NCBI RefSeq assembly: GCF_001940455.1
Contig: NZ_MKQR01000009.1
Span: forward strand, 248,754 to 312,753
DNA from: Actinokineospora bangkokensis
GTDB taxonomy: Bacteria > Actinomycetota > Actinomycetes > Mycobacteriales > Pseudonocardiaceae
Length of the DNA: 64,000 nt
Reading direction: 5' to 3'
Of this stretch, positions 9,181 to 59,411 are shown one piece after another; positions within the stretch are counted from its first letter, which is position 1; every line of letters starts with the position of its first letter. Made by a program: the position numbers and the translations under genes. Below the pieces are notes generated by a model. That model had not been told where the DNA came from, ran no database searches, and was given only the letters and a program-made list of their open reading frames with translations.

Positions 9181-9191
9181 AACCCCCGACG

Positions 9192-9225
9192 TCGGTCCCG
9201 GGGCTCGTCCCCGCCCCGGGACCGA
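9192..9225 (+). terminator. Hairpin downstream of the PKS gene
   Basis: A perfect 12-bp inverted repeat (TCGGTCCCGGGG at 9192-9203, complement at 9214-9225) with a 10-nt loop begins 12 nt after the PKS stop. No U-tract follows, as is common in actinobacteria. It suggests at least partial termination before the downstream ccr-P450 pair. Confidence 0.55.
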
Positions 9226-9321
9226 CCCTCCCCCCGGGCGCCGCGGCCACCCGCCGCGGCCCGCCCACCGCGCCCACTCGGCGCACCCACCCCGCCCAAC
9301 CCGACCCTTGCAGGAGCCACC

Positions 9322-43545: not shown

Positions 43546-43614
43546 CGCAGACCCCTCTCGCTCGAAGACCCTTCGATGGTCCGGCGCACTGCCCGCTAAC
43601 GGCAAGGAAGTTGC

Positions 43615-44601: not shown

Positions 44602-44764
44602 GATCAACGTCTAGCACACCCCCCGACGGGCGGCGCGACGCCCGGTGGCGGGGGTACCGGGGGAGGGGAGTCGTGGGTGGGGAAGAACCTGCGGGCCGCG
44701 GTGGTCACCCGGAGTGGTGAACCGGGGCGGGAACAGCCACCACCGCCGCGGTGTTGCACGCGGC

Positions 44765-45196
44765 ATGACCGACAACAACGCGGAGTTCAGCCCCGAGGAC
44801 TGGGTGCGCGAGCAGACCAAGCGCGTCCTGGAGACCGGCACCACCGAGGGCATCGAGATCCAGGGCTCGCCCATCGTCCTGATGACCCTGCGCGGGGCGA
44901 AGTCGGGCAAGTTGCGCTACACCCCGGTCATGCGGGTGGAGCACGACGGCCGGTACGCCGTGGTCGCCTCCAAGGGGGGCGCCCCCGAGCACCCGAACTG
45001 GTACCACAACATCGTGGCCCACCCGGAGTTCCCGCTCCAGGACGGCACGGTGACCAAGACCTACCGCGCCCGCCAGGTCGAGGGGGACGAGCGCGCCGAG
45101 TGGTGGGAGCGCGCCGTGGCCGCCTACCCCGCCTACGCCGAGTACCAGGAGAAGACCGACCGCACGATCCCGGTCTTCGTGCTCGACCCGGCCTGA
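44765..45196 (+). CDS. F420-dependent deazaflavin nitroreductase family protein (Ddn-like)
   Basis: 143 aa from ATG 44765. It matches the DUF385/Ddn split beta-barrel family: [43 protein letters not shown] and HPEFPLQDG (given in parts). These small enzymes use coenzyme F420H2 to reduce quinones or nitro compounds. It is convergent with two more split-barrel proteins on the other strand, separated by a strong terminator. Confidence 0.93.
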
Positions 45197-45229
45197 TCAC
45201 CGGGACCCCCACCCCACCCGCGTGCGAGC

Positions 45230-45265
45230 ACCGCGCCCCCGGCCACCCGCGACCGGGGGCGCGGT
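45230..45265. terminator. Bidirectional terminator hairpin
   Basis: Perfect 13-bp arms ACCGCGCCCCCGG (45230-45242) and complement (45253-45265), loop 10 nt, between convergent genes ending at 45196 and 45271. Confidence 0.85.
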
Positions 45266-45270
45266 CGCGT

Positions 45271-45786
45271 TCAGGAGAAGTCGCCGGTGAGCCAGCGGTC
45301 GGGGCGGACCTCGACGACCTCCGGGGTGCCGTTGGCGTTCTGGCCGCCCGCCTCCCAGGCCACCCAGCCGTCCAGGTCCGCCGCGGGCAGGTAGCGGGCG
45401 CCGATGCGGCGCAGGTCGGCCTCGGTGGCCGGTTCCTGGCGCACGACGGTGCCCTCCACGGTGACGTACCGGTAGGGCACCTCGGGGCGCTGGACGGACA
45501 GCGACAGCACCCCCGCCCGCCGGATCAACCGGGACTTGCGGCGGCCCTGCCTGGTCACCACCGTCAGGGTGCCGCCGGGTTCGTAGGCGTACCAGGTGGG
45601 CAGGGTCGACGGCGGGCGGTCGCCCTCGCTGACCACGCTGAGCACCGCCACGCGCGGTTCGGCCAGGAAGGCCTCGCGCTCCGCCCTGCCCAGCTTGCCC
45701 GGCTTGCCGGTGTCGTCCCGCGTGTCCTGCTGCTCGGTGTCCTGCTGCTTGATGTCCTGCTGCTCGGTGTCTTGCTGCTTGCCCAT
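45271..45786 (-). CDS. PPOX-class F420-dependent split-barrel oxidoreductase with N-terminal QQD repeats
   Basis: 171 aa from ATG 45786. After the start comes a low-complexity segment of four pentapeptide units (QQDTE, QQDIK, QQDTE, QQDTR), encoded by a 15-bp tandem repeat. The PPOX/PNPOx-like split barrel follows: FLAEPRVAVLSVVSE, PSTLPTWYAYEPGG, RKSRLIRRAGVLSLSVQ, YVTVEGTVV. The family binds F420 or FMN and reduces varied small molecules. A second paralogue starts 73 bp upstream on the same strand. Confidence 0.9.
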   Translation of the reverse strand: MGKQQDTEQQDIKQQDTEQQDTRDDTGKPGKLGRAEREAFLAEPRVAVLSVVSEGDRPPSTLPTWYAYEPGGTLTVVTRQGRRKSRLIRRAGVLSLSVQRPEVPYRYVTVEGTVVRQEPATEADLRRIGARYLPAADLDGWVAWEAGGQNANGTPEVVEVRPDRWLTGDFS

Positions 45787-45858
45787 GTGGTCCTCCCAGT
45801 CCCAGGACACCAGTGAACCGCAGCGGACCGACAAGACGGCCCGCGTCCCACGTCCCGG

Positions 45859-46284
45859 TCAGTCGGCGATGCCGGTGAAGCCGACCACGGAGTCGATGCG
45901 GGCCCGCACCAGGTACTCGCCGGGCACGGAGTTGCGGGCCCCGTACTCCTCGGCCCGGTCGGCGCCCATGTAGCGGGCGCCGATGCGGGTGGCCCACTCG
46001 CGCACGACGGCGAGGTCGTCGACGAAGGTGGGCGTCGCGGTGATCGTCACGTAGGAGTACGGGGGTTCCTGGTCGTCGACGCAGACGCTGAGCCGGTTCT
46101 CCCGGCGCAGCGCGCGGTACTTCACCGAGTCCGACCACGTGGTGAACACGAGGTCGTCGCCGTCGACGAGGAACCAGATCGGCGTGACGTGCGGGGAGCC
46201 GTCGCGGCGCACCACGGCGAGCTTGCCGGTGCGGGTCCCCGCGCCCGCGAACGGGCGCCACTGCTCGTCGGTCATCCTGGGCAT
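45859..46284 (-). CDS. PPOX-class F420-dependent oxidoreductase (TIGR-type split barrel)
   Basis: 141 aa from ATG 46284 (GGAGGAC just upstream). Split-barrel motifs: TRTGKLAVVRRDGSPHVTPIWFLVDGDDLVFTT in parts, SDSVKYRALRRENRLSVCVDD and YVTITATPTF. It fits the F420-dependent PPOX family acting as a reductase. It is 80 bp downstream of the biosynthetic operon ending with the Asp-hydroxylase-like gene; an imperfect hairpin at 46305-46342 in that gap makes cotranscription uncertain. Confidence 0.9.
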   Translation of the reverse strand: MPRMTDEQWRPFAGAGTRTGKLAVVRRDGSPHVTPIWFLVDGDDLVFTTWSDSVKYRALRRENRLSVCVDDQEPPYSYVTITATPTFVDDLAVVREWATRIGARYMGADRAEEYGARNSVPGEYLVRARIDSVVGFTGIAD

Positions 46285-46364
46285 GTCGTCCTCCGGGACG
46301 CGGCTGTGCGGCGGACCCCCGCGCCCGGGGGCCCGCCACACTGTCGCACGGGTCGAGGCGCGGG

Positions 46365-47363
46365 TTACAGCGCCCGCGCCGGGACGGTCAGCTCGCGCAC
46401 GGCGGTGCCCACGCGGGTCCGCAGGGTCACGGTGGGGGAGTCGCCCGCGGGGTCGATGGTGATGGTGCGCTCGTCGGTCCAGCCCGCGAAGCGGAACTCG
46501 CCGCCGCCGGTGTGGATGAGCTTGGCCGTCGGCTTGCCCGCCACGGTCAGCACCAGCGCGCCGTCGACGACCGAGGCGGTGGCGGGCGCCTGCTCCTGCG
46601 GCTGGAGGAACTGACCGTCCTCCTCCTCCCAGGAGGGGAACGACACCGGGATGTCGAACGCCACCGAGTGCGCCGCCAACCCCTCGGCCGACAGCGGGAC
46701 CCGCCGCTTGTTGACCAGCACGTCGTCGCGGTCGAGGTCGGCCAGGTACTCGTCGGGGAACAGCTCCAGCAGCTCCTCCGACACCAGCGCGTCGATCACC
46801 ATGTGCACGCGCGGCACGGTGTCGGTGTTCTCCACCTGGTGCATTCGGGAGAAGTCGCCGAACCAGAACTCCCCGGGCTGCCACTGGTGCAGCGTGCCCT
46901 CCATGAACAGCTTGGCGCCGGGACAGGTGGTGACCGGCACGTGCAGCCGGGCGTTGCCCCAGGCCGGGCCGTACTTGGTGTCGTTGTGCAGCCAGCTCTT
47001 CGCGCCGGGGCCCAGCGAGAGCAGCCGCACCGCGCGCAGCTCGGCCGGGATGTCGGCCAGCAGCGCGGAGAAGTAGGGCGCCTTCTCCCGCCACACGGTG
47101 TCCTCGTGCTCCAGCAGGCCGGGGCCGCCGGGGTCGGTGCGCTCCAGGTTGGCGCCCGCGCTGCGCAGCGACAGGCAGCGCCAGTCGATCTCGGCCTCGG
47201 TGACGGTGCCGTCGTCGGCGTAGCTGCGCTGCAGGCTCCACACGTGCTCGCTGAGCGTGCGCAGGTCGTCCTGCAGGCGGGCGGCGTCGTACTCGCGCTT
47301 GAGCTTGGCCGCGGGCGGCACGGTGGTGGTCGCGGTGGGCGGGAGCGGGTTGTCGATGGACAC
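46365..47363 (-). CDS. Aspartyl/asparaginyl beta-hydroxylase-type Fe/2OG oxygenase
   Basis: 332 aa from GTG 47363. The core is of the Asp/Asn beta-hydroxylase family: LLSLGPGAKSWLHNDTKYG, iron ligands likely His141 (ARLHVPV) and His175 (SRMHQVEN), and 2-oxoglutarate-binding Arg185 (VPRVHMVID). The two-His, no-carboxylate arrangement is typical of the family. A further C-terminal beta-rich part of about 100 residues (QEQAPATASVVDGALVLTV onward) is unusual. Last gene of the seven-gene leftward cluster operon, 30 bp after the ATP-grasp gene. It likely hydroxylates an amino acid, free or in the assembled product. Confidence 0.88.
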   Translation of the reverse strand: MSIDNPLPPTATTTVPPAAKLKREYDAARLQDDLRTLSEHVWSLQRSYADDGTVTEAEIDWRCLSLRSAGANLERTDPGGPGLLEHEDTVWREKAPYFSALLADIPAELRAVRLLSLGPGAKSWLHNDTKYGPAWGNARLHVPVTTCPGAKLFMEGTLHQWQPGEFWFGDFSRMHQVENTDTVPRVHMVIDALVSEELLELFPDEYLADLDRDDVLVNKRRVPLSAEGLAAHSVAFDIPVSFPSWEEEDGQFLQPQEQAPATASVVDGALVLTVAGKPTAKLIHTGGGEFRFAGWTDERTITIDPAGDSPTVTLRTRVGTAVRELTVPARAL

Positions 47364-47393
47364 GTCAGGCCTCTCGGTGGTGGTGGTCGGTGA

Positions 47394-48686
47394 TCAGGGG
47401 GTGGGCGCCAGCGCCGCGCGGTCGGCGCCGCGCACGCCCGCCAGCGCCACGTCGACGTCGGCCCGCACCCGCGGGGTGAGGAAGCCGTGCCGCGCGGTCA
47501 GCTCGTCCAGCACGGCGCCCAGCCGGGGCACGTCGGCGTACTCGCAGGTGATGACCATGTTGGCGTAGCGGACGCCGTCGACGGTGAAGCTGCTGGAGCG
47601 CACCACGTCCAGGGCGGCCCTGGCGTCGGCGTCGGCGGCCGGGCTCATCGGGGCGGTGGGCACCTGCAGGGCCACCCGGCGCGCGGCGCCGGAACCCCGG
47701 TCGTGGCGGGTGCCCCACTCGCCGAAGAGGATGTCCACCATGGACACGTAGGTGTTGAGCCCGGAGGCCGCGATCGACAGCGAGGTCGACCCGGACACCC
47801 GGGGGTTGATCTCGATGACCTCGAAGCGGTCGCCGTGGTGGATCATCTCCACCTCGACCGACCCGGACAGCTCCAGCGCCGCGCACAGCCCGCGCAGCTT
47901 CTCGGCCACCGGGGCGAACAGCGCGTCGGCGTCGGGGCGGGGCGCGGTGTAGCGCACGGTGCTGAAGGCGAAGGTCGGCTCGCCGCCGGTGGGCCCCTTC
48001 CACAGCAGCGGCTGGACCACGTAGTCGCCCGCCGAGCCCACCAGCTCCACCGAGCACAGCTCCCCGGTGAGGCAGCGCTCCAGCACCACGTTGCCGTCGT
48101 AGGGCTCGTCCAGGTAGCGGTCGAGCTCGGCGGGGCCCGCGATGAGCCGGATGCCGTTGCCCAGGCAGTCCCACAGCGGCTTGCTCAGCAGCGGGTAGCC
48201 CAGCTCGGCGGCGCGCTCACCCAGGTAGTTGCGGTAGGCGGGCACCGGGACGGTGCGGTCGTTGAGCAGGTCGCCGTCGACCAGGATGCCCTCGGGGGTG
48301 TCCAGGCCGTGCGCGCGGACCAGCTGCTTGGTCTCCCACTTGTTCGCCATGAGCCCGGTCGCGGCGGCGCTGTGCATCACGGTCGGGATGCCGTCGGCGG
48401 CCAGCCGCTCGCACACCAGCGCGTCGCGCAGCGCGTTCTCGTCCGGGATGGACAGCGACACCACGCCGTCGGCGCCCCAGGCGCGGATGCGGTCCAGGGT
48501 CTGCGCCACCGACACACCCGCGGGCAGCTTCTCCGACTCGCCGGGGAACTCGTCCGGGCCGCACTCGCCGTCGGTGTAGAACAGCTTGCCGACCACGCCC
48601 CGCGCGCGCAGCGCCGCGCCCAGCTCCACCAGGTAGGGGACCGTCTGCTGGATCTCGATGGACCGCAGGAAGGCGATCTTCCTCAT
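47394..48686 (-). CDS. ATP-grasp amino acid/peptide ligase (first of pair)
   Basis: 430 aa from ATG 48686, overlapping the upstream ATP-grasp gene by 4 nt. ATP-grasp features: LMANKWETKQLVRAHGLDTP (start of the lid helix), LSKPLWDCLGNGIRL, glutamates in GNVVLERCLTGELCSVELV, and metal-binding EVEMIHHGDRFEVIEINPRVSGS. The EINPR pattern and overall length fit carboxylate-amine ligases such as carnosine-synthase-like or L-amino acid ligases, which make peptide bonds through acyl phosphates. Placed between another ligase and a hydroxylase, it probably forms an amide in the cluster's product. Confidence 0.9.
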   Translation of the reverse strand: MRKIAFLRSIEIQQTVPYLVELGAALRARGVVGKLFYTDGECGPDEFPGESEKLPAGVSVAQTLDRIRAWGADGVVSLSIPDENALRDALVCERLAADGIPTVMHSAAATGLMANKWETKQLVRAHGLDTPEGILVDGDLLNDRTVPVPAYRNYLGERAAELGYPLLSKPLWDCLGNGIRLIAGPAELDRYLDEPYDGNVVLERCLTGELCSVELVGSAGDYVVQPLLWKGPTGGEPTFAFSTVRYTAPRPDADALFAPVAEKLRGLCAALELSGSVEVEMIHHGDRFEVIEINPRVSGSTSLSIAASGLNTYVSMVDILFGEWGTRHDRGSGAARRVALQVPTAPMSPAADADARAALDVVRSSSFTVDGVRYANMVITCEYADVPRLGAVLDELTARHGFLTPRVRADVDVALAGVRGADRAALAPTP

Positions 48687-49921
48687 CTCGGGTCGACCTC
48701 GACGGTGATGGCCCCGACGACGTCGTTGGCCAGCTCGTTGGCCTCGGTGGTCGACCCGCCGGTGACGATGACGTAGCCGACCCTGGCGACGTTGTCGGTG
48801 GCCGCGCCCAGCTCCTTGCCCGGCTCGGCGTAGACCTCGGCCTCGACGACCTGCTCGCTGTCCGGGATGCCGCGCACGCCGCGGAACACCCCGGCCCGCG
48901 GCGGGGTCAGGAAGCGGATCGCGGCGGCGCGCTGCTCGGTGCGCTCCAGGTCGGGGGTGCGGCCCAGGGCGATCTGGATGTAGGCGGCGGCCTCGCTGAC
49001 CCCGGTGGCCAGGCGCACCAGCTTCATGATGTGGTCGCCGGGCGGGCGGGCGCCGATCTCGATGATGCGGGCGGTGCCGGGGGAGACGAGCTTGATCTCC
49101 GCGTGCGCGATGCCGTGCCGGAAGCCCAGCGCCGCCAGCCCCGCCGCGGACGCGGCGAGCAGGGTGGCGCGGTCGTCGGAGGACAGCTCGGCGGGCACGG
49201 TGTGGCCCAGCTCGGCGCGGCTGTCGTCGGCGGTGGTGAACTTCTGCGTGATCGCCAGCTCGCGCACCCGCCCGTCGACCACCGCGGACTCGACGCTGAA
49301 CTCCACGCCGCCGACGTACTCCTGGGCCAGCACGGAGTTGTCCAGCGGGGTGCCGTGCGGGAACTCGAACGGCCAGCCCTGGGCGAACTCCACCGCGCGG
49401 GCCAGGTCGTCGGCCGAGCGGACCACGGTGACCCCGATCGACCCCGCGTTCTCGGCGGGCTTGACCACCAGCGGGTACTCGATGCCCGCGGCGGCGACCA
49501 GCTCGGCCAGCTCCTCGGCGGTGGCCGCCGAGACGGTGCGCGGCGCCGGGGCGCCCGCCCGCTCGAACGCCTCGGCCATCGCCCGCTTGTTGCGGGTGGC
49601 CAGGGCCAGCTCCGGGTCGTGCGACGGCAGGCCGAGGTCGGCGGCGACCTGGGTGGCCAGGCCGGAGAAGAACTCCCAGCCGGTGATGACGCCCTCGACG
49701 CCCTCCTCGCGGCCGTAGGCGACCAGCGCCTTGCGCGCCAGCTCCAGGTCGGAGAAGTCGGTGAACACCGTGCCCGCGATCAGGTCCTTGCTGCTGGGCG
49801 GGTAGTTGTCGTAGAGGTCGGCGTGCGTGGCCACCAGGGTCCGCACCCCCAGCGCGGCGGCGGCCCGCAGCAGGTCCTCCCCGGCGTTGCCGTTCGCCTC
49901 GATCAACAGCAGCTTCGTCAT
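48683..49921 (-). CDS. ATP-grasp amino acid/peptide ligase (second of pair)
   Basis: 412 aa from ATG 49921 with GAGGTC upstream. N-terminal Rossmann-like MTKLLLIEANGNAGEDLL, ATP-grasp core with ATRNKRAMAEAFERAGAP, YPLVVKPAENAGSIGV, VLAQEYVGGVEFSVE, and EIKLVSPGTARIIEIGARPPGDHIM. The last motif is typical of L-amino acid ligases of the BacD/carnosine-synthase-like class. It is only distantly related to its neighbour, so the pair probably makes two different bonds rather than being a recent duplicate. 45 bp downstream of the MFS gene. Confidence 0.91.
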   Translation of the reverse strand: MTKLLLIEANGNAGEDLLRAAAALGVRTLVATHADLYDNYPPSSKDLIAGTVFTDFSDLELARKALVAYGREEGVEGVITGWEFFSGLATQVAADLGLPSHDPELALATRNKRAMAEAFERAGAPAPRTVSAATAEELAELVAAAGIEYPLVVKPAENAGSIGVTVVRSADDLARAVEFAQGWPFEFPHGTPLDNSVLAQEYVGGVEFSVESAVVDGRVRELAITQKFTTADDSRAELGHTVPAELSSDDRATLLAASAAGLAALGFRHGIAHAEIKLVSPGTARIIEIGARPPGDHIMKLVRLATGVSEAAAYIQIALGRTPDLERTEQRAAAIRFLTPPRAGVFRGVRGIPDSEQVVEAEVYAEPGKELGAATDNVARVGYVIVTGGSTTEANELANDVVGAITVEVDPR

Positions 49922-49966
49922 CGTGACCTCTCGTGTGGTGACTGGGGTGGGTGTCCGGGGGACGGG

Positions 49967-51235
49967 TCAGGCGGTGGGCGCGGGGGCGGCGCGCAGGGAC
50001 AGCAGCGTGGTGGAGAGCAGGCTCAGCGCGGCCAGCACCGCCCACGGCCACACCCGCCCCCACGACAGCAGGGTGGTGAACAGGGCGGGGGCCAGCGCGC
50101 CGCCGACGTTCCAGGACAGCATCTGGAACACCGCCAGGTACCGGCCGCGCAGCGCGGGCGGGGCGAGCGCGACCGACAGCGAGCTCACCGCGGGCGACTG
50201 CACGACCTCGGCCAGGGTGTAGACGAGCATCGCCGCGGTGAGCGCCGCGATGGCGAGCCAGCCGGGCACCAGGCCCGCGGCGGCGAAGGCGGCGAACGCC
50301 ACGGCGTTGAGCACCGCGGCCAGCGCGATCACCCGGTGGGGCCGGTGCCGCTCGACCCACGCGCTGACGCTGGTCTGGGTGAGCGACACCAGGACGGTGT
50401 TCACCGTCAGCAGCACGCCCGCCAGCCAGATGATGCCCGGCACGGTGCGCTCGATGTAGATCGCCAGCAGCACGCTGAGCACCATGGCGTCGAGCACGAA
50501 CACGAAGTTGACCGCGACGAGCCGCAGGAACGCCCGGTCGCGCAGCACGACCCCGTAGCCGACCTTCGCCGCCGCCGGTGCCTCGTCGTCGGCCACCGCC
50601 GCCGGGGCCTCCTGGGGCACCGGGCGCCAGCTGATCAGCAGCCAGGACGCGAAGGCGTAGGACACGGCGTTGGCCACCAGCAGCCAGTGCAGCCACCCGG
50701 TGCCGCCGACGCCGACCACGACGGCCGCGATCGCCCCGCCGAGCCCGACCCCCGCGTTGCGCAGCGCCTGCATCAGCCCGAACCACCGGGTCCGGTTGTC
50801 CTCCGTGGACGCCAAGGCGACCAGCGAGCCGTAGGAGGTCCAGTAGCCGCTGATGCCCACCTGCACCAGCAGGCCCAGGACGGCGACGTGCCAGAACTGC
50901 TCCGCCAGCAGGTAGGACAGGAACCCGATGCCCGCGACGAGGTTGCTCACCGCGGCCACCAGCCGCGGGCCGAACCGGTCCACGAGCCCGCCGAACAGCG
51001 CGGGCGCGGGGATCGCGAGCAGCTGGGCGACCGTCAGCGCGAAGCCGACCTGCACCAACGACATCGACGTCGTCCTGGCGAAGTAGACGACCTGGAAGGC
51101 GAACAGCAGCCCGCTGCCCAGGCTGTCGATGGCGCCCGCGGTCAGGAAGCGGGCGTTGCCGCCGATCTCCGGCAGGCCCCAGCGCGAGCGCGGCCCCCGG
51201 TCGTCGGGTGCGGTGGTGGTGGTCGGTTCAGACAT
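49967..51235 (-). CDS. MFS exporter of the cryptic nucleotide/amino-acid cluster
   Basis: 422 aa from ATG 51235. Twelve hydrophobic segments; loop 2-3 with GGLVDRFGPRLVAA, and a charged central loop (VPQEAPAAVADDEAPAAAK). Similar to MFS permeases often found in antibiotic clusters. Embedded in the middle of the seven-gene operon (56 bp after the IPNS-like gene, 45 bp before the ligase), which points to export of, and self-protection from, the product. Confidence 0.9.
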   Translation of the reverse strand: MSEPTTTTAPDDRGPRSRWGLPEIGGNARFLTAGAIDSLGSGLLFAFQVVYFARTTSMSLVQVGFALTVAQLLAIPAPALFGGLVDRFGPRLVAAVSNLVAGIGFLSYLLAEQFWHVAVLGLLVQVGISGYWTSYGSLVALASTEDNRTRWFGLMQALRNAGVGLGGAIAAVVVGVGGTGWLHWLLVANAVSYAFASWLLISWRPVPQEAPAAVADDEAPAAAKVGYGVVLRDRAFLRLVAVNFVFVLDAMVLSVLLAIYIERTVPGIIWLAGVLLTVNTVLVSLTQTSVSAWVERHRPHRVIALAAVLNAVAFAAFAAAGLVPGWLAIAALTAAMLVYTLAEVVQSPAVSSLSVALAPPALRGRYLAVFQMLSWNVGGALAPALFTTLLSWGRVWPWAVLAALSLLSTTLLSLRAAPAPTA

Positions 51236-51291
51236 GGGTGTCCGCGTCCTGTCCTGTCATGCCGGGTCCTGGGTCCGCGCGGTCGGGCCTG

Positions 51292-52332
51292 CTACAGGCC
51301 GTAGGCGCGGCGGAACTTCTCGAGGATGTACTCGCCGGAGCGCACCGGGGCGTGCCGCGGCGGGTCCTGCAGGGAGGTGCAGGTGGGGATGCACTCGATG
51401 AGCGCGTCGAAGTTGGGCTGGTGGAAGAACGGCACCGAGTACCGCTCCCGCGTCGCCACCTCCGGCGCCGGGTTGACCACCCGGTGCACCGTGCTGACCC
51501 AGCGGTTGTTGGTCCACACCGCCATGAGGTCACCGATGTTGACCACGAACGAGCCCTCGATCGCGGGCACGTCCACCCACTCGCCCGCCTTGTCCAGCAC
51601 CTGCAGGCCGCCGGGGGCGTCGTCCTGGTAGAGGATCGTCAGGCTGCCCCAGTCGCTGTGCTGGCCCTTGCGCAGCTGGCCCGGCTTGGGCGGCACGAGC
51701 TGGGCCGGGTAGTAGTTCGCGGTCAGGTTCGTCATGTGCTCGTCGACCTTGTCGTCGAACCAGCCCTCGGGCAGGTCCAGGGCGAGGGCGAACAGCCGCA
51801 TCAGCTCCAGCGCCAGCTCCTGCATGCTCGCGTAGTAGGCGCGGTAGGCGGCGGCGAACCCGGGCAGGTCCGGCCAGTGGTTCGGCGTGGTGAGCAGCGG
51901 GTCGGACCCGGCGGGCAGCGCGGGCGCGTCCGGCTCGCCCAGCCGGTTGTAGGTGTAGGTCTGCGACAGGTCCGGCAGGTCGCGCTCGTCGGCCACCGAG
52001 GCGTCGGTGTTCGACGCGGCCAGGCTGCCCGCGCGGCCGAACCCGCGCATCAGCGGGTCGTCCGGCGCGGCCTGCAGGGCCAGCTTGGCCGCGTCGGGCA
52101 GGGCGAAGAACTCCCGGGTGGCCCGGTACATCGCCGCGATGCGCTCGGCGGGCACGCCGTGGCCGACGATGGCGAGGAACCCGCTGGTCTCGCACACCCG
52201 GCCGAGGGTCTTGGCCACCAGCTCGCGGGCGGCCGGGTCGCCGGAGCGGGCGCTGGAGATGTCGATGACCGGCACGTAGCCGTCGACCAGGGTGACCGGT
52301 GCGGTGCGGGTGTCGACTGGTGAGAGGGTCAT
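51292..52332 (-). CDS. Isopenicillin-N-synthase-like Fe(II)/2OG oxygenase
   Basis: 346 aa from ATG 52332, overlapping the LOG gene by 4 nt. N-terminal DIOX_N part (VPVIDISS, ETSGFLAIVGHGVP), then the 2OG-Fe(II) double-stranded beta helix with iron ligands His225 and Asp227 (GQHSDWGSLTIL) and His283 (TVHRVVNP), and 2OG-binding Arg297/Ser299 (RYS). RxS indicates a 2OG-using enzyme rather than true IPNS. Homologues hydroxylate, desaturate or ring-close amino acid, nucleoside or beta-lactam substrates. Confidence 0.93.
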   Translation of the reverse strand: MTLSPVDTRTAPVTLVDGYVPVIDISSARSGDPAARELVAKTLGRVCETSGFLAIVGHGVPAERIAAMYRATREFFALPDAAKLALQAAPDDPLMRGFGRAGSLAASNTDASVADERDLPDLSQTYTYNRLGEPDAPALPAGSDPLLTTPNHWPDLPGFAAAYRAYYASMQELALELMRLFALALDLPEGWFDDKVDEHMTNLTANYYPAQLVPPKPGQLRKGQHSDWGSLTILYQDDAPGGLQVLDKAGEWVDVPAIEGSFVVNIGDLMAVWTNNRWVSTVHRVVNPAPEVATRERYSVPFFHQPNFDALIECIPTCTSLQDPPRHAPVRSGEYILEKFRRAYGL

Positions 52333-52937
52333 GCTCGGACTTCCTGTCTCGTTCCTGCTGGGGTGGCGCCGGGCGCGGGGGCCCAGCGGGGTGGTGGCGG
52401 GGTCCAGTCCCGCACCGCGGCGGTGAACCCCGCGGCCCCCGACACCGGGACCAGGGAGTGCCGCTCGGCCGGGCGCAGGAAGCCGTGGCGGGCCATCCGC
52501 GCCGCCACCTCGACCAGCGGGGCCCAGTAGCCGTCCACGTCGAGCAGCAGCAGCGGCTTGCTGTGGTGGCCGAGTACCAGCGCGGCCCACACCTCGAACA
52601 GCTCCTCCAGGGTGCCGACGCCGCCGGGGACGGCGACGATCGCGTCACCGAGCTCGGCCAGCTGCCGCTTGCGCTCGTGCATGGTGTCCACCACGCGCAG
52701 CTCGGTCAGCCCGGGGTGGGCCACCTCGGCGTCGACCAGCTCGCGCGGGATGACGCCGATGACCTCCGCGCCCGCGGCCAGCGCGCGGTCGGCGACCACG
52801 CCCATCAGCCCGGTGCTGCCGCCGCCGTAGGCGAACCCGGCGCCGTCCGCGGCCAGCTCCTCGACGAAGCGGCCGACCGCCTCCGCGAAGGCGGGGGAGT
52901 CCCCGCTGGCCGACCCGGCGTAGACGGTGACGCGCAT
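52329..52937 (-). CDS. LOG-family nucleotide phosphoribohydrolase
   Basis: 202 aa from ATG 52937, which overlaps the thyX-like stop by 1 nt (TGATG). LOG/TIGR00730 motifs: YGGGSTGLMG (37-46), MHERK (86-90) and catalytic PGGVGTLEE (104-112). The family hydrolyses nucleoside 5'-monophosphates to free base and ribose 5-phosphate; known relatives include cytokinin-activating LOG, and MilB-type CMP hydrolases in antibiotic pathways. Sitting immediately after a ThyX-family gene in one translationally coupled unit, it most likely cleaves the C5-modified pyrimidine nucleotide. A Pro-rich C-terminal tail is unusual. Confidence 0.93.
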   Translation of the reverse strand: MRVTVYAGSASGDSPAFAEAVGRFVEELAADGAGFAYGGGSTGLMGVVADRALAAGAEVIGVIPRELVDAEVAHPGLTELRVVDTMHERKRQLAELGDAIVAVPGGVGTLEELFEVWAALVLGHHSKPLLLLDVDGYWAPLVEVAARMARHGFLRPAERHSLVPVSGAAGFTAAVRDWTPPPPRWAPAPGATPAGTRQEVRA

Positions 52938-53698
52938 CAGGGGGCCACGCGGCCGAAGGTCTCGAACGCCGCGTGCGTGATCGGCATCAGCTCGCGCCAC
53001 TGCCGCTCCATCTCCTCGGCCACCACGGCGATCTCGTGCTGCGGGTGCGAGGGGTAGGTGGCGTCCTGGCGGTGGGTGCGCAGGCTGAGGAAGTGCATCA
53101 GCGAGCGGGCGTTGCAGGTGGCGTAGAGCGAGGAGTAGGTGGCCGTGGGCAGCACGATGCGGGCGATCTCGCGGGCCACGCCCCGCTCGATCAGCTCGTT
53201 GTACCCGGCGTAGGCCGCGCCGTAGGACTCCTTGGCGATCTCCACCAGCCGGTCGTGGTCGCCCTCGGCGCCCGGGACGTACTGGTAGTGGCCCGGCTTG
53301 CCCACCTGGCGCAGCAGCCGGTCGGCGTCGGGGACGTAGAACACCGGGCGCACCTCGCGGTAGCGGGCGCTCTCCTCGTTGAACGACCACGTGCGGTGGC
53401 GCATCATGTGCCGCACGGTGAAGATCGGCGCGGTGACCAGGAAGGTCAGGTAGTTGTGCTCGAACGGGCTGCCGTGCCGCGACTTCATCAGGTACTTGAG
53501 CATCCCCTCGACGTAGCCGTCGGAGCGCGTCTCGGTCTGCGCGATCTCCCCGACCGTGGACACCCGGGCGGCCCGCACCACGCCGAGGTCGCTGGCCTGG
53601 TGGTCGACGAGCTGCACGGTGATCTCGCTGCGGAACTCGATCTCGGGGTCGACGGCCGCGACGGCGGCGCCCTCCGGGCGGATCAGCTGGCTGGTCAC
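52937..53698 (-). CDS. ThyX-family flavin-dependent thymidylate synthase-like enzyme
   Basis: 253 aa from GTG 53698 (ATG 53713 is an alternative; neither has a strong ribosome site). The ThyX signature RHRTWSFNEESAR is complete at residues 100-112; other family segments are ASDLGVVRAARVST, LMKSRHGSPFEHN, TATYSSLYATCNARSLMHF and HPQHEIAVVAEEME. ThyX methylates dUMP at C5 using methylenetetrahydrofolate, FAD and NADPH; a ThyX homologue in polyoxin biosynthesis (PolB) acts on UMP. First gene of the operon and behind a SARP-type repeat array, so a dedicated biosynthetic role is favoured over housekeeping dTMP synthesis, which cannot be excluded without the rest of the genome. Confidence 0.93.
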   Translation of the reverse strand: MTSQLIRPEGAAVAAVDPEIEFRSEITVQLVDHQASDLGVVRAARVSTVGEIAQTETRSDGYVEGMLKYLMKSRHGSPFEHNYLTFLVTAPIFTVRHMMRHRTWSFNEESARYREVRPVFYVPDADRLLRQVGKPGHYQYVPGAEGDHDRLVEIAKESYGAAYAGYNELIERGVAREIARIVLPTATYSSLYATCNARSLMHFLSLRTHRQDATYPSHPQHEIAVVAEEMERQWRELMPITHAAFETFGRVAP

Positions 53699-53854
53699 GT
53701 GTGGTGGTCCCATCTGGTCGTTGGTGGCGGCACCCGGACCCGGACCGGGGGGTGCCGCGGCACGCCTCGCCACCCGGCCCCCCCGGGTGGCGCCTGCCCG
53801 CGCCGCCGGTGTGGCGCGGCGGTGGGCCTGTGCCGACCAGTCAACCCGGCGGTG

Positions 53855-53884
53855 TTATCGCAGCCTTATCGCAGGGATATCGAC
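53855..53884 (-). promoter_or_regulatory. SARP-type heptamer repeat array facing the thyX-led operon
   Basis: On the + strand TTATCGCA (53855), TTATCGCA (53866) and ATATCGAC (53877) recur with exact 11-bp period; read leftward the core is (G/T)CGATA. Direct heptamers at 11-bp spacing are the known SARP binding layout. The array ends 157 bp before the thyX-like start. The divergently read sister array is at 53899. Confidence 0.75.
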
Positions 53885-53898
53885 GCGGGCACCCCACC

Positions 53899-53942
53899 GC
53901 GATAGTCCGCGATAGTGCCGGGATATCGCCCGCGGCTAACGT
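53899..53942 (+). promoter_or_regulatory. Second SARP-type repeat array with -10 box, facing right
   Basis: GCGATAG (53899), GCGATAG (53909) and GGGATAT (53920) are spaced 10 and 11 bp; TAACGT (53937-53942) follows 10 bp after the last repeat, matching the usual distance from SARP repeats to a -10 element. It points away from the operon, toward a possible small gene at 54012. Confidence 0.65.
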
Positions 53943-54011
53943 TTTCCCCTGGCGGCCACGACGTCCGCTGCGGGGGGACGACCCCCGGGCCGGAGAGGAA
54001 GAGCGCTGATC

Positions 54012-54095
54012 ATGAGGGGGAGCACGGTCGTGACGAGGACGCCGAGGGCCACCGCACCGCCCACCGCGGCACCGGACACCCCGTGGGGGAAGTGA
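54012..54095 (+). CDS. Possible 27-residue peptide gene
   Basis: ATG 54012 follows AGAGGAAG with about 9-nt spacing and opens a 27-codon frame beginning MRGSTVV and ending PDTPWGK, rich in Thr, Pro, Arg and Ala. It lies 70 bp downstream of the TAACGT -10 of a rightward SARP-type promoter and 10 bp before a hairpin, so it is the only plausible product of that short transcript. No known peptide family is recognised. It might be a substrate or signal peptide of the cluster, or the transcript might act as RNA only. Confidence 0.35.
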   Translation: MRGSTVVTRTPRATAPPTAAPDTPWGK

Positions 54096-54105
54096 CGGGG
54101 TGATC

Positions 54106-54138
54106 CGGCGGGTGGCGCGCGTGGCGTGCCACCCGCCG
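54106..54138. terminator. Hairpin after the small peptide frame
   Basis: Perfect 11-bp arms CGGCGGGTGGC (54106-54116) and complement (54128-54138) with an 11-nt loop, between the rightward small unit and the 3' end of the convergent SARP gene. Confidence 0.6.
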
Positions 54139-54220
54139 CGGTTCGTCCGCCCGTGCTGGTTGCAGCGCAGCGGGACCGGGCGCCCGCGTCGTCGAACTCC
54201 CCGCTGTGGCGGGGAAGCGC

Positions 54221-57163
54221 TCAGCGCCCGCTGGTCAACGTGTCCAGCACCAGCGAATCCACGGTCAACCGGGCCGCTCCCACCACCGGCGGCGCGGCCT
54301 CGCGCTCCGCGCGCTCACCGAGCACCGCCTCCAGTTCCCGCTGGATCCCGTCCACCGGGATCGCGGCCGCCGCCTGCCCCGCCAGGTCCAGCGCCTCGCG
54401 CAGCACCTGCGCCGCCGCGGCCCGGTCGCCCAGCACCGCGTGCACGGCCCCCAACCGCTCCAGCACCCGCACCTGCCCCATGAGGTCCCGGCTCGATCGC
54501 ACGGTGTCGAGCAACCCGCGCAACAGCTCGGCGGCGTGCTGGTAGCGCGCCTGGCGCACCAGCAGTTCGCTGAGCCGGAAGCGCAGCTGGTTCTCCACCC
54601 GCTTGCTGCCCTCCGGCGGGCACAGCGCCAGCGCGTGCAGCAGGTGCTGCTCGGCGCGGGCGATGTCGCCGGATTCCAGCTCCAGGGCCACGATCTGCAC
54701 CCACACGTGGGCCTGGCCGACCACGTCGCCCACCGCGGCGAACTCCCGCGAGGCCTGCTCGTAGCCGCGCAGCGCGCTGTCGTCCTCGCCGCGCATCTGG
54801 TCCACCAGCGCCAGGTTCCGCCGCGCGATGGCCGTGCCGTGCGCGTCGCCCAGCCGGGTGAAGGTCGCCAGCGCCGGGTGCAGCAGCTCGCGCGCCAGGG
54901 CCAGCCTGCGCCCGCTCAGGTGCATCGATCCCAGCGAGCACAGCAGCGCCGCCTCGCCGCGCTCGTGCCCGGCGGCGCGCACCGCCTCCAGCGCCCGCTC
55001 GTGCGTGCGCTCCCAGTCGTCGTGGTACAGCCTCGCCTCGAACAGCGCCACGAGCGTGACGGCCAGGTCCCAGGCGTGCTCGTCCAACCCGGAGTCCGCG
55101 GCCATGTCCACCGCGCCGCACAGGCAATCCCGCTCGAACTCCAGCCACGCCAGCGGGTCCTCCTTGACCTGCCGCACCAGGTCTGCGGGCAGCTCGGGGC
55201 GCTCCACACCGCTGTGCAGCACGGTGCTGCCGTCCCGGCCGTAGAGGGTGGTGTGCGCGGTGCGGGCCAGTTCCAACCACCGCGCGACGACGCGCGCCAC
55301 GGCGTGGTGGGCGCCGTCGTCCTCGACCTCCGAGCGCTCCCGCGCGAACAGCCACAGCAGCCCGTGGAACCGGTAGCGCGGCGCGGACCCCGCGCCCGCC
55401 GGGGCGATCTCGATCATCTGCATGTCGACCAGGTGCTCCAGCAGCGCCGATCCCCGGTCGACGCCGACGTCGAGCAGCACGCCCGCCACCCACGCCGGGA
55501 ACGTCGCGCAGCGCAGCGCGCTGAGCAGCCGCAGCAACCGGCGCGCCTGCGGGTCGAGGCTGTCGTAGGTGAGCGCGACGCTGGCCCGCACCACCAGTTC
55601 GCCGTGCGAGAGCTCGTCGAGCCTGCGCTTCTCATCGGACAACCGCTCCAGCATCCACGACAGCGTCAGCGTGGGGCGGGCGGCCAAGCGCGCCGAGACG
55701 ATCCGCAGCGCCAGCGGCAACCGGTCCACCAAGCGCACCAGGGCCTCCGCGGCCGCGCGCTCGGCGGCCACCCGCTCCTGCCCGATCACCCGCACCAGCA
55801 GCTGCACGGCCTGCGCGGGCTCCAGCACGTCGACCTCGAACACCCGCCCGCCCGCCAACCCGGTGAGCCGCACCCGGCTGGTGACCAGCACCGCGCAGCG
55901 GCTGTTGCCCGGCAGCAGGTGCGCCACCTGCGACTCCGAGGCCGCGTCGTCGAGCACCACCAGCAGCCTGCGGTCGGAGATCAGGTGCCGGAACAGCGCC
56001 GCGCGCTCGCCCAGGCTGTCCGGGATGCCCTCCACCAGCACGCCCAGCGCGCGCAGGAAGCGCCCCAGCACGTCCGAGGGCGAGACCGGGGACGGCCCGG
56101 TGCCGCCCAGCTCGCAGTAGAGCTGGCCGTCGGGGAAGTCGTGCTCGCACACCCGGTGCGCCACGTGCGCGGCCAGCGCGCTCTTGCCCACGCCCGGCTT
56201 GCCCGCCAGCACCACGACGTTCGCCGCGCGCGGGGCCTCCCGGTCGAGCAGCACCCGGCGCAGCGTGGCCACGAGCTCGGCGTGCCCGGTGAAGTCCGCG
56301 ATGTCGGCGGGCAGCTGGTGCGGGGCGCGCGGCGTCCTGTGGTCATCGGATGACCGCGCCTGCACCGGAACCGCCGCGGGCCGCGGCGGGAGCAGCTGGT
56401 CGGCGTCGGAGAGCATCGCCGCCTCCAGCTCGCGCAGCTCCGCGCCGGGCTCCATGCCCAGCTCCTCGATCATCAGCTCCCGGCCGACCCGGTAGACCTC
56501 CAGCGCCTCCGCGCGCCGCCCGGAGCGGTAGAGCGCGAGCATGTACTGCCCGCGCAGGCGTTCGCGCAGCGGGTGCTCGGCCAGCAGCGCCGCGACGCCG
56601 CCGATGGCCGTGCGGTGGTCGCCGAGCCGGATCGCCAGGTCGAACGAGGTCTCCTTGGCCTGGAGCAGGCTCTCGTCGAGCTGGGCGGCGCGCGCCCGCA
56701 CCAGCCTGCTGTGGATGCCGTCGAGCGCGGGCCCGCGCCACAGCGCGATCGCCCGGCGCAGCAGCGCCGCGGCCGCGGTGAGCTTGCCCTGCGCGGCCAG
56801 CACGTCGGCGTCGGCGGTCATCCGCGCGAACAGCTTGGCGTCGACCTGCTCCTCGGGGACCTGGAGCAGGTAGCCCGAGGCCCGGGTGACCAGCGCGTCG
56901 GCCCACCCGGAGCCGCGCAGCACGTTGCGCAGCGCCGACACGCAGATCTGCACCTGCGCGCGGGCGGTGGCGGGTGGCGCGCCGTCCCAGATCGCGTCGA
57001 TGAGCCGGTTCGTCGCGACCACCCGGTTGGCCTCCAGCACCAGCATGGTCAGCACGATCTCCTGGCGACCGGGGGAGAGCCGGGACGACTCGGCGACGCG
57101 GACCTCCAGCGGCCCCAGGACGCGGAACGCGGGCTCCTCGCCCGCCGCACGGTTCTGGTCCAC
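54221..57163 (-). CDS. Large SARP-family transcriptional activator (wHTH-BTAD-NB-ARC-TPR)
   Basis: 980 aa from GTG 57163, preferred for spacing to AGGGGAGA; GTG 57169 adds two residues. Domains: OmpR-type winged helix (FRVLGPLEVRVAESSRLSPGRQE to SGYLLQVP), BTAD (LFARMTADADVLAAQG to GRELMIEELGMEPGAELREL), NB-ARC ATPase (Walker A VVLAGKPGVGKSALA near 320; LLVVLDDAASE; DLEPA-like DVLEPAQAVQLL), then TPR-like helices to the end. AfsR-like SARPs activate antibiotic clusters by binding heptamer repeats next to -10 boxes. Two such arrays lie at 53855-53942, between this gene and the operon, so it is the likely cluster-situated activator. Confidence 0.94.
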   Translation of the reverse strand: MDQNRAAGEEPAFRVLGPLEVRVAESSRLSPGRQEIVLTMLVLEANRVVATNRLIDAIWDGAPPATARAQVQICVSALRNVLRGSGWADALVTRASGYLLQVPEEQVDAKLFARMTADADVLAAQGKLTAAAALLRRAIALWRGPALDGIHSRLVRARAAQLDESLLQAKETSFDLAIRLGDHRTAIGGVAALLAEHPLRERLRGQYMLALYRSGRRAEALEVYRVGRELMIEELGMEPGAELRELEAAMLSDADQLLPPRPAAVPVQARSSDDHRTPRAPHQLPADIADFTGHAELVATLRRVLLDREAPRAANVVVLAGKPGVGKSALAAHVAHRVCEHDFPDGQLYCELGGTGPSPVSPSDVLGRFLRALGVLVEGIPDSLGERAALFRHLISDRRLLVVLDDAASESQVAHLLPGNSRCAVLVTSRVRLTGLAGGRVFEVDVLEPAQAVQLLVRVIGQERVAAERAAAEALVRLVDRLPLALRIVSARLAARPTLTLSWMLERLSDEKRRLDELSHGELVVRASVALTYDSLDPQARRLLRLLSALRCATFPAWVAGVLLDVGVDRGSALLEHLVDMQMIEIAPAGAGSAPRYRFHGLLWLFARERSEVEDDGAHHAVARVVARWLELARTAHTTLYGRDGSTVLHSGVERPELPADLVRQVKEDPLAWLEFERDCLCGAVDMAADSGLDEHAWDLAVTLVALFEARLYHDDWERTHERALEAVRAAGHERGEAALLCSLGSMHLSGRRLALARELLHPALATFTRLGDAHGTAIARRNLALVDQMRGEDDSALRGYEQASREFAAVGDVVGQAHVWVQIVALELESGDIARAEQHLLHALALCPPEGSKRVENQLRFRLSELLVRQARYQHAAELLRGLLDTVRSSRDLMGQVRVLERLGAVHAVLGDRAAAAQVLREALDLAGQAAAAIPVDGIQRELEAVLGERAEREAAPPVVGAARLTVDSLVLDTLTSGR

Positions 57164-57294
57164 GCGCACGTTCTCCCCTGGTCAGCTGCTGCCGGGTCAC
57201 CGGACCGGTCGCGACAAGTGGTCCACTGTAGCGAAACCGCGATCCAGCATAGAGATTTTGCGGGAATGGACCAGCAGTTCCAGGAGGCGAAACC

Positions 57295-57705
57295 ATGACC
57301 GATCCGATCCCCGCCATCCGTTCCCTCTGCCTGCCCTTTCCCGGCTGCGCCGAACGGCTCAGCCACGGTGAGCCCGCTTGGTTCGCCGGTGCCCGGCGCA
57401 GGTTCGTCACCTACGCGGGGATCCGGCACTGCGCCCGGCCCGCGATCTGGTGCGCCGCCCCGCCCGGCGCCCAGGAAGCCCTGGTCGCGGCCGATCCGGT
57501 GCGCTTCTTCCGCCCGCCCTACGTCGGCCACCGCGGCTGGCTCGGCGTCTACCTCGACGTCGCCGTCGACCCCGCTGAACTGGCCGAGATCATCACCGAC
57601 GCCTACCGCCAGGTGGCCCCGCCCACCCTGTTGGCCCAGCTCGACGCCGCACCCGCCCACCCCGCCGCGACGCCCCGTGAACTCCCGGGAACGCGCCGGG
57701 GCTGA
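57295..57705 (+). CDS. MmcQ/YjbR-family protein
   Basis: 136 aa from ATG 57295 with CAGGAGGCG upstream. Family features: LPFPGCAERLSHGEPAWFAG, RRFVTYAG, and the C-terminal PPYVGHRGWLGVYLD with YRQVAPPTLLAQLD. These are small cytosolic proteins with a double-wing fold, annotated as possible DNA binding, function unproven. Divergent from the SARP gene (131-bp gap). Confidence 0.9.
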   Translation: MTDPIPAIRSLCLPFPGCAERLSHGEPAWFAGARRRFVTYAGIRHCARPAIWCAAPPGAQEALVAADPVRFFRPPYVGHRGWLGVYLDVAVDPAELAEIITDAYRQVAPPTLLAQLDAAPAHPAATPRELPGTRRG

Positions 57706-58102
57706 CAAATGGTAATTCCGCCCACCCTCCGGAAAATTCCCCGAAGAGGCCGAGGACGTGCTAACGCGCCCGCTGACGTGAATACGTCTCAGCCGCATTC
57801 CACGGCCGCGGACCACCGCATTCCCCCTGGTCGGCACCCGACAACCGCAGCCGGGACGCCGGGGGAGACGCGCGAGCGCCGCTCCGTCGGAACCCTTTCA
57901 CGCGATAACCACCCTTCCGGGGGGAGAGTGCCGATAACCGTGCCGGAGGAATCCAACGAACCCCCTTTCCTGGCCGCCAATCCCCGACCCGCCGTACTGG
58001 GGACACCAGGTTCCTCGTTCACGGCGAATCGGACGTTAGCGGTCCGCAACGGACAATCCGATCGTGGCGGTGAGAAACTGACACACAAAGAGATCGGCCC
58101 GG
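57706..58102. other. 397-bp non-coding spacer
   Basis: Less GC-rich than the flanking genes, with several ATTCC/GGAAT-type stretches (for example CCGGAAAATTCC near 57728 and separated CCGATC/GATCGG near 58058 and 58090). No convincing gene, RNA element or regular repeat was recognised. It separates the MmcQ gene from the 3' end of a leftward gene, so promoters are not required here. Confidence 0.5.
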
Positions 58103-58402
58103 TTATTCCCCGTCCAATTCCCGCAACCCCGCCACCCACCGCTCCCGCCGCTCGGCCGAACTCGCCTCCCACCACGGCACCCCGCGCTCACCCAACGCCA
58201 CCTTCGCCACCTGCACCCGCCCCCGCGCCACCCGCTCCCCCTCGGCGTCCCCGGCCCGCACCGCCACCCCCACGGCCCGCCGAGCCGCCATCAAGTGCTT
58301 CCGCAACGCCGCCGCCGCGTCCTCCGGCACCTCCGGGTCGGTCGCCCGCCACCGCCGTCCCTCCACCACCACGTACCGCCCATCCGGCGTCCGCTCGACC
58401 AC
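58103..58402 (-). CDS. Small conserved actinobacterial protein
   Basis: 99 aa from GTG 58402 with GAGGAGGGGCGA just upstream. The sequence begins VERTPDGRYVVVEGRRWRATDP, and has the AARRAVGVAVRAGDAEGE and RVQVAKVALGERGVPWWE segments seen in a widespread family of short actinobacterial proteins of unknown function. Charged, helical, no signal peptide. The frame on the opposite strand is only a Pro/Arg-rich shadow. Confidence 0.8.
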   Translation of the reverse strand: MVERTPDGRYVVVEGRRWRATDPEVPEDAAAALRKHLMAARRAVGVAVRAGDAEGERVARGRVQVAKVALGERGVPWWEASSAERRERWVAGLRELDGE

Positions 58403-58599
58403 TCGCCCCTCCTCGCGCTCCCGGTGTGGCCACGGAGTGCCCTCGCGGTCGCGGCGTCAATCCCACCGAACGGTGGGTGCGGTGGGCCAATTGATACGGG
58501 TCCACTACGGATTGTTCCGGTGTTCACGGTCACTTCACACTTCGGGGCGTGGTCGGGTGTCCCCCCGGCCGCGCACCCTGCAAGCAGAGGAGAGCGCTC

Positions 58600-59319
58600 G
58601 TGAGGACGATGTTGGCCGCTGTGGCGGTGGCGCTGGGGGCGGTCGTGGTGGCGGCGCCGGTGGCGGGGGCGAAGCCGGGGCCGCCGGTGGGGGAGGCGCC
58701 GCCGTCGACGCAGATCATCGACGGGGGGTACTACAACCAGAGCGCGCCGTGGGCGGCTCGGCTGTTCCTCAACGGGCAGCAGAACTGCACGGCGACGTTG
58801 ATCTCCTCGCAGTACGTGCTGACGGCGCGGCACTGCGTGGGCGGGTCGTTGTCGTTCCGGATCGGGAGCCTGGACCAGAGCAGCGGGGGGTACGTGGCCT
58901 ACGGGGCGCAGACGACCACCCACCCGTCGGCGGACCTGGCGCTGGTGCGGCTGGACCGCAGCATCCGCACGACCTACTCGCCGCTGGGCACCTCCACCGA
59001 CGTGGCGCCGGGGCGGTACGCGGTCGTGCTGGGGTGGGGGGCCACCTGCACGGACCAGGCGGAGATCAACTGCCAGTCGCGGTACCTCAAGTACGCCGAC
59101 GTGACCGTTTCCACCGTCGCCGACCGGGACTACTTCGGCGGGGTGGCGATCGGCGCCCGGTACTACAACGGGATCACCGCCGGGGGTGACTCCGGGGGGC
59201 CGATGTTCGCCAACGGCCGCCAGGTGGGGGTCGCGTCGACGAGCAACCGGTACGACTACACCTCCTACACCAACATCACCCGCTACCGGTCCTGGATCAG
59301 CTCCATCGCCGGTGTGTGA
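58600..59319 (+). CDS. Secreted trypsin-like serine protease (S1)
   Basis: 239 aa from GTG 58600 with AGAGGAG 10 nt upstream. Signal peptide (MLAAVAVALGAVVVAAPVAGA), short propeptide, then an S1 domain: His in TARHC, Asp in ADLALVRL, Ser in GDSGGP, with GWGATC and paired cysteines. The N-terminus after cleavage would be IIDGG, near the canonical IVGG. The residue six before the active Ser lies in YYNGITAGGDSGGP, not the Asp typical of trypsin, so specificity is probably not tryptic. Monocistronic. Confidence 0.93.
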   Translation: MRTMLAAVAVALGAVVVAAPVAGAKPGPPVGEAPPSTQIIDGGYYNQSAPWAARLFLNGQQNCTATLISSQYVLTARHCVGGSLSFRIGSLDQSSGGYVAYGAQTTTHPSADLALVRLDRSIRTTYSPLGTSTDVAPGRYAVVLGWGATCTDQAEINCQSRYLKYADVTVSTVADRDYFGGVAIGARYYNGITAGGDSGGPMFANGRQVGVASTSNRYDYTSYTNITRYRSWISSIAGV

Positions 59320-59384
59320 CCCCGTCCCGCGTCCGCGCGTCAGGCGCGGGCGCGGGGCGGTCCCCGTGGTTTGATCAAGCGGAG

Positions 59385-59402
59385 GTACCCCGGTCGGGGT
59401 AC
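59385..59402. promoter_or_regulatory. Palindrome GTACCCCG-N2-CGGGGTAC
   Basis: A perfect 8-bp inverted repeat 10 bp before the YihY gene start; it may be an operator or a leader hairpin. Confidence 0.4.
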
Positions 59403-59411
59403 ACATTCCGG

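Follow-up and report, generated by a model that had tools for sequence, protein, structure and literature searches.

The closest described counterparts of the gene cluster analysed here, which lies in a 64,000-nucleotide stretch of the Actinokineospora bangkokensis genome (assembly GCF_001940455.1, contig NZ_MKQR01000009.1, positions 248,754 to 312,753; the whole stretch is called the window, and positions in it are counted from its first base), come from polyoxin biosynthesis on the one hand and from mildiomycin and bacimethrin biosynthesis on the other. PolB, the ThyX-type enzyme of the polyoxin pathway, methylates both UMP and dUMP, whereas the normal ThyX of the same organism did not use UMP, and the substitutions Y126F and Y99F impair the use of UMP by PolB, according to the excerpts of PMC5003785 on which we draw here. 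The Discussion of that paper, again in excerpt, reports that polyoxin A, which is the 5-hydroxymethyl compound, was obtained when a Streptomyces avermitilis homologue of thymine-7-hydroxylase (T7H) was expressed together with the polyoxin cluster; a T7H homologue can thus oxidise the polyoxin methyl group, and its substrate in that case may have been a nucleotide. In mildiomycin and bacimethrin biosynthesis (MilA-MilB, BcmA), a C5-modified pyrimidine nucleotide is made and its N-glycosidic bond is then cleaved to release the free base. The cluster in the window appears to follow this second logic but with unrelated enzymes, namely, a PolB-type ThyX, a LOG-type phosphoribohydrolase and a T7H-like Fe/2-oxoglutarate (2OG) oxygenase, and the predicted base is uracil, not cytosine.

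From the sequence, we consider it fairly probable that the cluster makes and exports a small, peptide-like molecule in which an oxidised pyrimidine base is conjugated to amino acids. In the scheme that we propose, ThyX would convert UMP to 5-methyl-UMP, the LOG-type enzyme would split this into free thymine and ribose 5-phosphate, and the oxygenase would take thymine most likely to 5-hydroxymethyluracil. Two ATP-grasp ligases, here called ATPg1 and ATPg2, would join the oxidised base and amino acids through amide or ester bonds, as their family suggests, with an amino acid probably being hydroxylated by an Asp_Arg_Hydrox-type oxygenase (AspH) or, in the related loci L040, L042 and L089, by an enzyme of the isoleucine-dioxygenase type. 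An MFS protein would export the product, which is probably a hitherto unknown antibiotic-like molecule, and a SARP regulator probably acts at GCGATA repeats before thyX.

A preliminary description of this DNA had proposed a C5-modified pyrimidine unit joined to one or two amino acids. That proposal survives the analyses below and is sharpened by the PolB residues, the T7H relative and the replacement of one supply module by another, with the product, its ligation and the number of amino acids standing as predictions. A comparison with literature and genomes, which left MIBiG aside, found no match to a known cluster of another product class; in the literature searched, no description of this cluster turned up and no paper that combines ThyX or uracil with an ATP-grasp ligase. 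The enzyme families are known; as far as that literature goes, their combination, the oxidation of thymine within a cluster and the existence of two unlike supply modules are undescribed. If the proposal is true, the locus would encode a bacterial pathway dedicated to making free 5-hydroxymethyluracil, or a further oxidised base, and would represent a nucleobase-peptide product class for which no description was found in the literature searched.

The ThyX-LOG-T7H trio is conserved

Scanning the contigs of 84,980 species with an ATPg2 alignment yielded 11 loci (62 stretches matched a pattern), of which 8 carried ThyX, LOG and T7H-like genes, 2 (L045 and L046) carried an alternative module and 1 (L043) carried neither on its contig. 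A search with the oxygenase in 392 Streptomyces genomes located 13 matches in 12 genomes: seven had 68 to 73% identity and six had 45 to 51%. ThyX and LOG adjoin all seven of the close oxygenases; distant T7H homologues (42 to 48% identity) had a ThyX or LOG match in none of six cases within the ~20 kb fetched.

Pooling these loci with those of a search in Streptomycetaceae described below gave 18 trio loci in 17 genomes, scored at thresholds that we set and counting genes within the fetched stretches (that of L089 ends before the place of the PPOX gene described below). Since the set includes near-copies (L139/L038, L089/L042 and L041/L093) and was found through ATPg2 or T7H queries, its members are not independent draws; seven loci were found by the T7H query alone, one of them being L041 again. 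ThyX, LOG and the T7H-like oxygenase are encoded on the same strand within 2.4 to 3.6 kb in every locus, and their grouping is beyond chance. Both ligases accompany the trio in 16 of the 18 loci, an MFS exporter in 12, a RutG-like pyrimidine permease in 12 and the PPOX gene in 8. The trio is also a ready probe for genome mining.

The cluster ThyX is of the PolB type

The thyX gene (52937 to 53698, on the reverse strand, as are all of the cluster genes listed for the window) encodes a protein of the FAD-dependent ThyX family (Thy1, 164 bits; TIGR02170, 178.3 bits against a cut-off of 87.9). Its best solved relative, at 352 bits against 125 bits for the next, is 4P5A, the structure of PolB with 5-Br-UMP. 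The two proteins are 67% identical and agree at 14 of 14 checked PolB positions, among them Y99, Y124 and Y126 and the substrate contacts. Residues H83, Y99, Y124 and Y126 are kept in the ThyX of all 18 loci; as a control, E83 and F126 were found in 19/19 other actinobacterial ThyX proteins compared (the best-scoring, from 19 of 161 matching genomes). From these residues and the clade, we infer that the window ThyX is a UMP C5-methylase.

Enzymes of the PolB type additionally form dTMP, and they are able to complement a thyX mutant (PMC5003785, excerpts), as would suit nucleotide salvage or spare thymidylate synthesis with no special metabolite. We regard that explanation as highly improbable. 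A profile search of the genome returned two Thy1 matches, one in the window (165 bits) and one on contig C7 (203 bits, 81107 to 81694), and the C7 protein is of a different type, ~27% identical to the window ThyX. The distance in identity and type means that the two copies do not stem from a recent duplication, and the presence of a second ThyX of another type leads us to reject a housekeeping thyX, a role that the preliminary description had tied to this being the only thyX in the genome. The ThyA family (PF00303) has no match in the whole genome. Further, the neighbours of these genes include two ligases, an exporter and a SARP. The cluster also occurs sporadically: among 397 genomes of the order, 43 have an ATPg2 match at E 0.001 and 3 exceed 300 bits, these being the window genome, a Saccharothrix genome (G393, locus L036) and a Glycomyces genome (G201, locus L045), the last with a MilA-type module.

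A LOG-type hydrolase accompanies ThyX in all loci

The gene that follows thyX (52329 to 52937) encodes a LOG-type 5'-monophosphate phosphoribohydrolase (TIGR00730, 143.2 bits against a cut-off of 96.35) in which the motif PGGVGTLEE fits the pattern PGGxGTxxE. Its family and its constant partnership with ThyX suggest that it hydrolyses 5-methyl-UMP to thymine and ribose 5-phosphate. The LOG proteins of the 17 other loci are 56 to 79% identical to it; the genome has three LOG-family matches, the other two being on contig C28 and 47% identical to the window LOG (both C28 loci gave one stretch). Its score under the cytokinin-LOG equivalog model, 114.9 bits against a cut-off of 300, weighs against the assigned activity. 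The parallel that the preliminary description drew with MilB of the mildiomycin pathway is a good one in terms of function, although the two enzymes come from different families.

These data bear on a quite unlikely alternative, a polyoxin-like peptidyl nucleoside whose C5-methyl group is oxidised on a sugar-bearing nucleotide or nucleoside while the LOG-type enzyme acts on another substrate. It draws on the facts that PolB acts in a nucleoside pathway and that the proposed polyoxin scheme, in the excerpts of PMC5003785, oxidises 5-methyl-UMP. The present locus differs from the polyoxin system in having the oxygenase inside the cluster, a LOG-type hydrolase in 18/18 loci and two ATP-grasp ligases, and the replacement module described below likewise brings an N-hydrolase. 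The RutG-like base permease found in 12 of the 18 loci also speaks for free-base chemistry. The scanned cluster proteins include no product of a sugar-modifying gene. Nor do the ten proteins scanned (43615 to 57169; the rest of the window was scanned in part) include an enolpyruvyl transferase or a radical SAM enzyme, as the preliminary description had already remarked.

The oxygenase is T7H-like and probably acts on the methyl group

The third gene of the trio (51292 to 52332) encodes a 2OG oxygenase with DIOX_N and 2OG-FeII_Oxy domains whose best solved relative is the Neurospora crassa thymine dioxygenase 5c3p (153 bits). The HxD...H iron site, the 2OG residues Y194, R286 and S288 and the base-sandwich residue F292 are kept in all 15 cluster oxygenases compared, and Y217, the other stacking residue, is W in all 15; position 217 of the fungal enzyme tolerates F or W (PMC4787775, excerpts). 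Taken with its neighbours and with the replacement module, this family membership suggests that the enzyme acts oxidatively on the methyl group, 5-hydroxymethyluracil being the likeliest product. Such an oxidation would here be encoded within the cluster, whereas in work on polyoxin it had been assigned to an enzyme from beyond the polyoxin cluster (PMC5003785, excerpts).

Several observations count against this assignment. An ethylene-forming-enzyme entry scored almost as well in the PDB (148 versus 153 bits), and 15/15 cluster oxygenases differ from fungal T7H at four positions, with M for N87, T for E122, T for R190 and Q for N294, in an alignment that is gapped around the E122 region. Substitution of R190 by K or A nearly abolished the activity of the fungal enzyme on all substrates, whereas N87A and E122A mainly impaired the oxidation of 5-hydroxymethyluracil and 5-formyluracil and N294A had no effect (PMC4787775, excerpts). 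Some of the same replaced residues are shared by distant homologues that have no ThyX or LOG neighbours. Because R190, N87 and E122 are not kept, we call the enzyme, which is bacterial and encoded in a biosynthetic cluster, T7H-like and do not file it as T7H.

ATP-grasp ligases require a carboxylate, which would be supplied if the oxygenase took thymine to 5-carboxyuracil and a ligase activated and amidated the acid. Locus L094, where an AMP-binding acyl-CoA ligase adjoins LOG together with two KASIII proteins, as for acid activation, would fit such a course, as would the three successive oxidations performed by fungal T7H (PMC4787775, excerpts). We nevertheless think it unlikely: the MilA-type module of L045 and L046 would stop at the hydroxymethyl stage, the residues needed mainly for the later oxidations in the fungal enzyme (N87 and E122) are not kept, and no dehydrogenase is kept with the cluster. 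For the oxygenase, a stop at the hydroxymethyl stage is plausible on these grounds.

The two loci without the ATP-grasp pair, L091 and L094, mean that the trio is not tied to the ligases and to that extent tell against the proposed scheme. In both, the trio stands beside KASIII-like genes (L091, 6416 to 11027; L094, 6550 to 15508), with an acyl-CoA ligase, an enoyl-CoA hydratase and an SDR also present in L094. A second class of product may draw on the trio in these loci, 5-carboxyuracil-CoA perhaps serving as its starter.

A predicted second, unrelated supply module adjoins the same ligases

In Glycomyces (L045) and in a metagenome bin (L046), the MFS-ATPg1-ATPg2 genes are kept at 43 to 49% identity, and a ThyA-family protein and a Nuc_deoxyrib_tr protein stand in place of the ThyX-LOG-T7H trio; neither genome has an oxygenase match at E 1e-60. 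The ThyA-family protein is nearest to the CMP 5-hydroxymethylase MilA (112 bits, with ordinary thymidylate synthases at ~50). In MilA, K133 and A176 are linked to ribose substrates and D186 to cytosine, the last being N in enzymes that act on uracil (PMC5175136, excerpts). In both loci these positions are K, A and N (the landmarks being E68, C155, H216 and Y218), and the protein is therefore predicted to be a UMP 5-hydroxymethylase. The MilA-like gene of L046 is split across two frames (3476 to 4578, coverage 2.75).

The partner hydrolase has as its nearest solved relative DNPH1/Rcl, named 5-hydroxymethyl-dUMP N-hydrolase, a type found in L045 and L046 and replaced in the window by LOG. Free 5-hydroxymethyluracil is the predicted end product of this module. 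The MilA-MilB pair itself has no counterpart in the window cluster: as well as the genome-wide lack of PF00303, PF05014 has no match among the cluster proteins, both families being present in L045. Two unlike supply modules thus predict the same base, and this convergence is the strongest hint at a shared 5-hydroxymethyluracil unit.

On this basis, we tentatively envisage a family of 5-hydroxymethyluracil-amino acid products in which bacteria have recruited unrelated enzymes on two or more occasions to supply the base (ThyX, LOG and a T7H-like oxygenase, or a MilA-like UMP hydroxymethylase and a DNPH1-like hydrolase) beside the same ligase-ligase-exporter cassette, with the trio being portable and also feeding KASIII-type pathways (L091 and L094). 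The L045 and L046 ligases are far removed from the rest (branch 1.51), which takes some force from the convergence and from the assumption that there is a single product class.

ATPg2 was found in 28 of 394 Streptomycetaceae genomes; 8 of these loci have the ThyX trio, and 16 have ATPg1-ATPg2 with a HemN-like radical SAM protein and DUF1152 in its place, and the ligase pair is therefore not, on its own, a sign of a pyrimidine product. The remaining loci L133, L136, L143 and L144 have neither the trio nor the HemN-like module, L144 having DUF1152. ATPg1-ATPg2-MFS is a cassette paired with at least three supply modules.

In the HemN-type loci (L119 to L132, L134 and L135), the genes next to ATPg1-ATPg2, which usually come with MFS, encode a divergent HemN-like radical SAM protein and DUF1152, a putative third supply module, with no match to ThyX, LOG or T7H; DUF1152 has no solved relative at E 0.1. 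In L043 (2646 to 7705), on a 10-kb contig of Streptomyces pathocidini that carries no pyrimidine genes, the gene for an ATPg2 relative overlaps one that resembles a shikimate dehydrogenase gene, and a penicillin-binding-protein transpeptidase is encoded downstream.

Ligases, exporter and amino acid hydroxylase

An MFS_1 protein (49967 to 51235), a predicted exporter by family, is followed by ATPg1 (48683 to 49921), a ligase of the L-amino-acid-ligase type with ATP-grasp_4 and LAL_C2 domains, both over cut-off (LAL_C2, PF18603, 63.5 bits against 29.4, in ATPg1 only). Its best solved relative is 3vot, and it resembles L-amino acid ligases such as BL00235, BacD and DdaF. It differs from them in lying far under the equivalog cut-offs (50.7 of 850 bits for BacD, 44 of 840 for DdaF) and in having the divergent ATPg2 as its partner. 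A search for ATPg1 homologues on plasmids gave 299 records, which were set aside, all being below 60% identity and generic ligases. ATPg2 (47394 to 48686; ATP-grasp_3) carries the motifs ANKWETK and SLSIPDEN, and no close solved relative of it was found. Its structural model (predicted local distance difference test score [pLDDT], 88.2) retrieved biotin carboxylases first and the L-amino acid ligase 3vot_B at rank 5, a result that confirms the modelled ATP-grasp fold with confidence and does not give the substrate.

The preliminary description had also counted AspH (46365 to 47363) among the cluster genes; its presence in 6 of 18 trio loci does not support a place in the core, and L040, L042 and L089 have an isoleucine-dioxygenase-type 2OG enzyme in its place. 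AspH is thus an accessory protein and a probable amino acid hydroxylase; it has no solved relative at E 0.001, and its model has a mean pLDDT of 57.7 (from a five-row alignment).

Gene layout and a putative SARP site

The seven tightly packed leftward genes from thyX to AspH (53698 to 46365) are in place and conserved as a set, with gaps, going downstream from thyX, of -1, -4, 56, 45, -4 and 30 nt; the adjacent SARP gene is in place too, and profile matches uphold the families to which the preliminary description had assigned them. The thyX start is likelier to be GTG at 53698 than ATG at 53713, because in the alignment L037 keeps the GTG and has a stop codon in the frame that begins at its counterpart of the ATG. 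The window region 43000 to 60000 gave no Rfam match at the gathering score for structured RNAs.

The SARP gene (54221 to 57169) encodes a large AfsR/SARP-type regulator of 982 amino acids with BTAD, NB-ARC and TPR domains; it matches the AfsR model at 541.7 bits, under the cut-off of 1430, and is thus AfsR-like. Both L036 (60%) and L037 (77%) have an orthologue, likewise upstream of their cluster. With a SARP above threshold in 3 of the 18 trio loci, the regulator is ruled out as a core gene and SARP control is not the general feature that had been suggested; both SARP and AspH are lineage specific.

Five of the six GCGATA copies in the window fall at 53856 to 53929, ~160 to 230 bp upstream of the thyX start, with periods of 10 to 11 bp, and the paired pattern has 3 matches against 0.02 expected. 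These repeats are a likely candidate for the SARP operator. This reading is tentative, as the tandem pattern is partly echoed in L036, which has four CGATA within 70 bp before thyX, and not in L037, which has no tandem pair and only two CGATA there.

Beyond AspH lies a gene for an F420-type PPOX oxidoreductase (45859 to 46284; TIGR03618, 116.9 bits against a cut-off of 79), an accessory function conserved alongside the module and probably the eighth member of the cluster. As PPOX turns up in ligase-type loci as well as in those of the KASIII type, its substrate may be the base, which it might for instance reduce, although this is a guess. A second PPOX-type gene (45271 to 45834), not found in L036 to L039, follows directly, and the N terminus of its product, as called, contains repeated QQDT/TEQQ stretches. 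At the other end of the window (85 to 11291), the end of a modular type I polyketide synthase (ketosynthase, acyltransferase, ketoreductase, acyl carrier protein and thioesterase) is followed by a P450 gene and forms a separate biosynthetic cluster.

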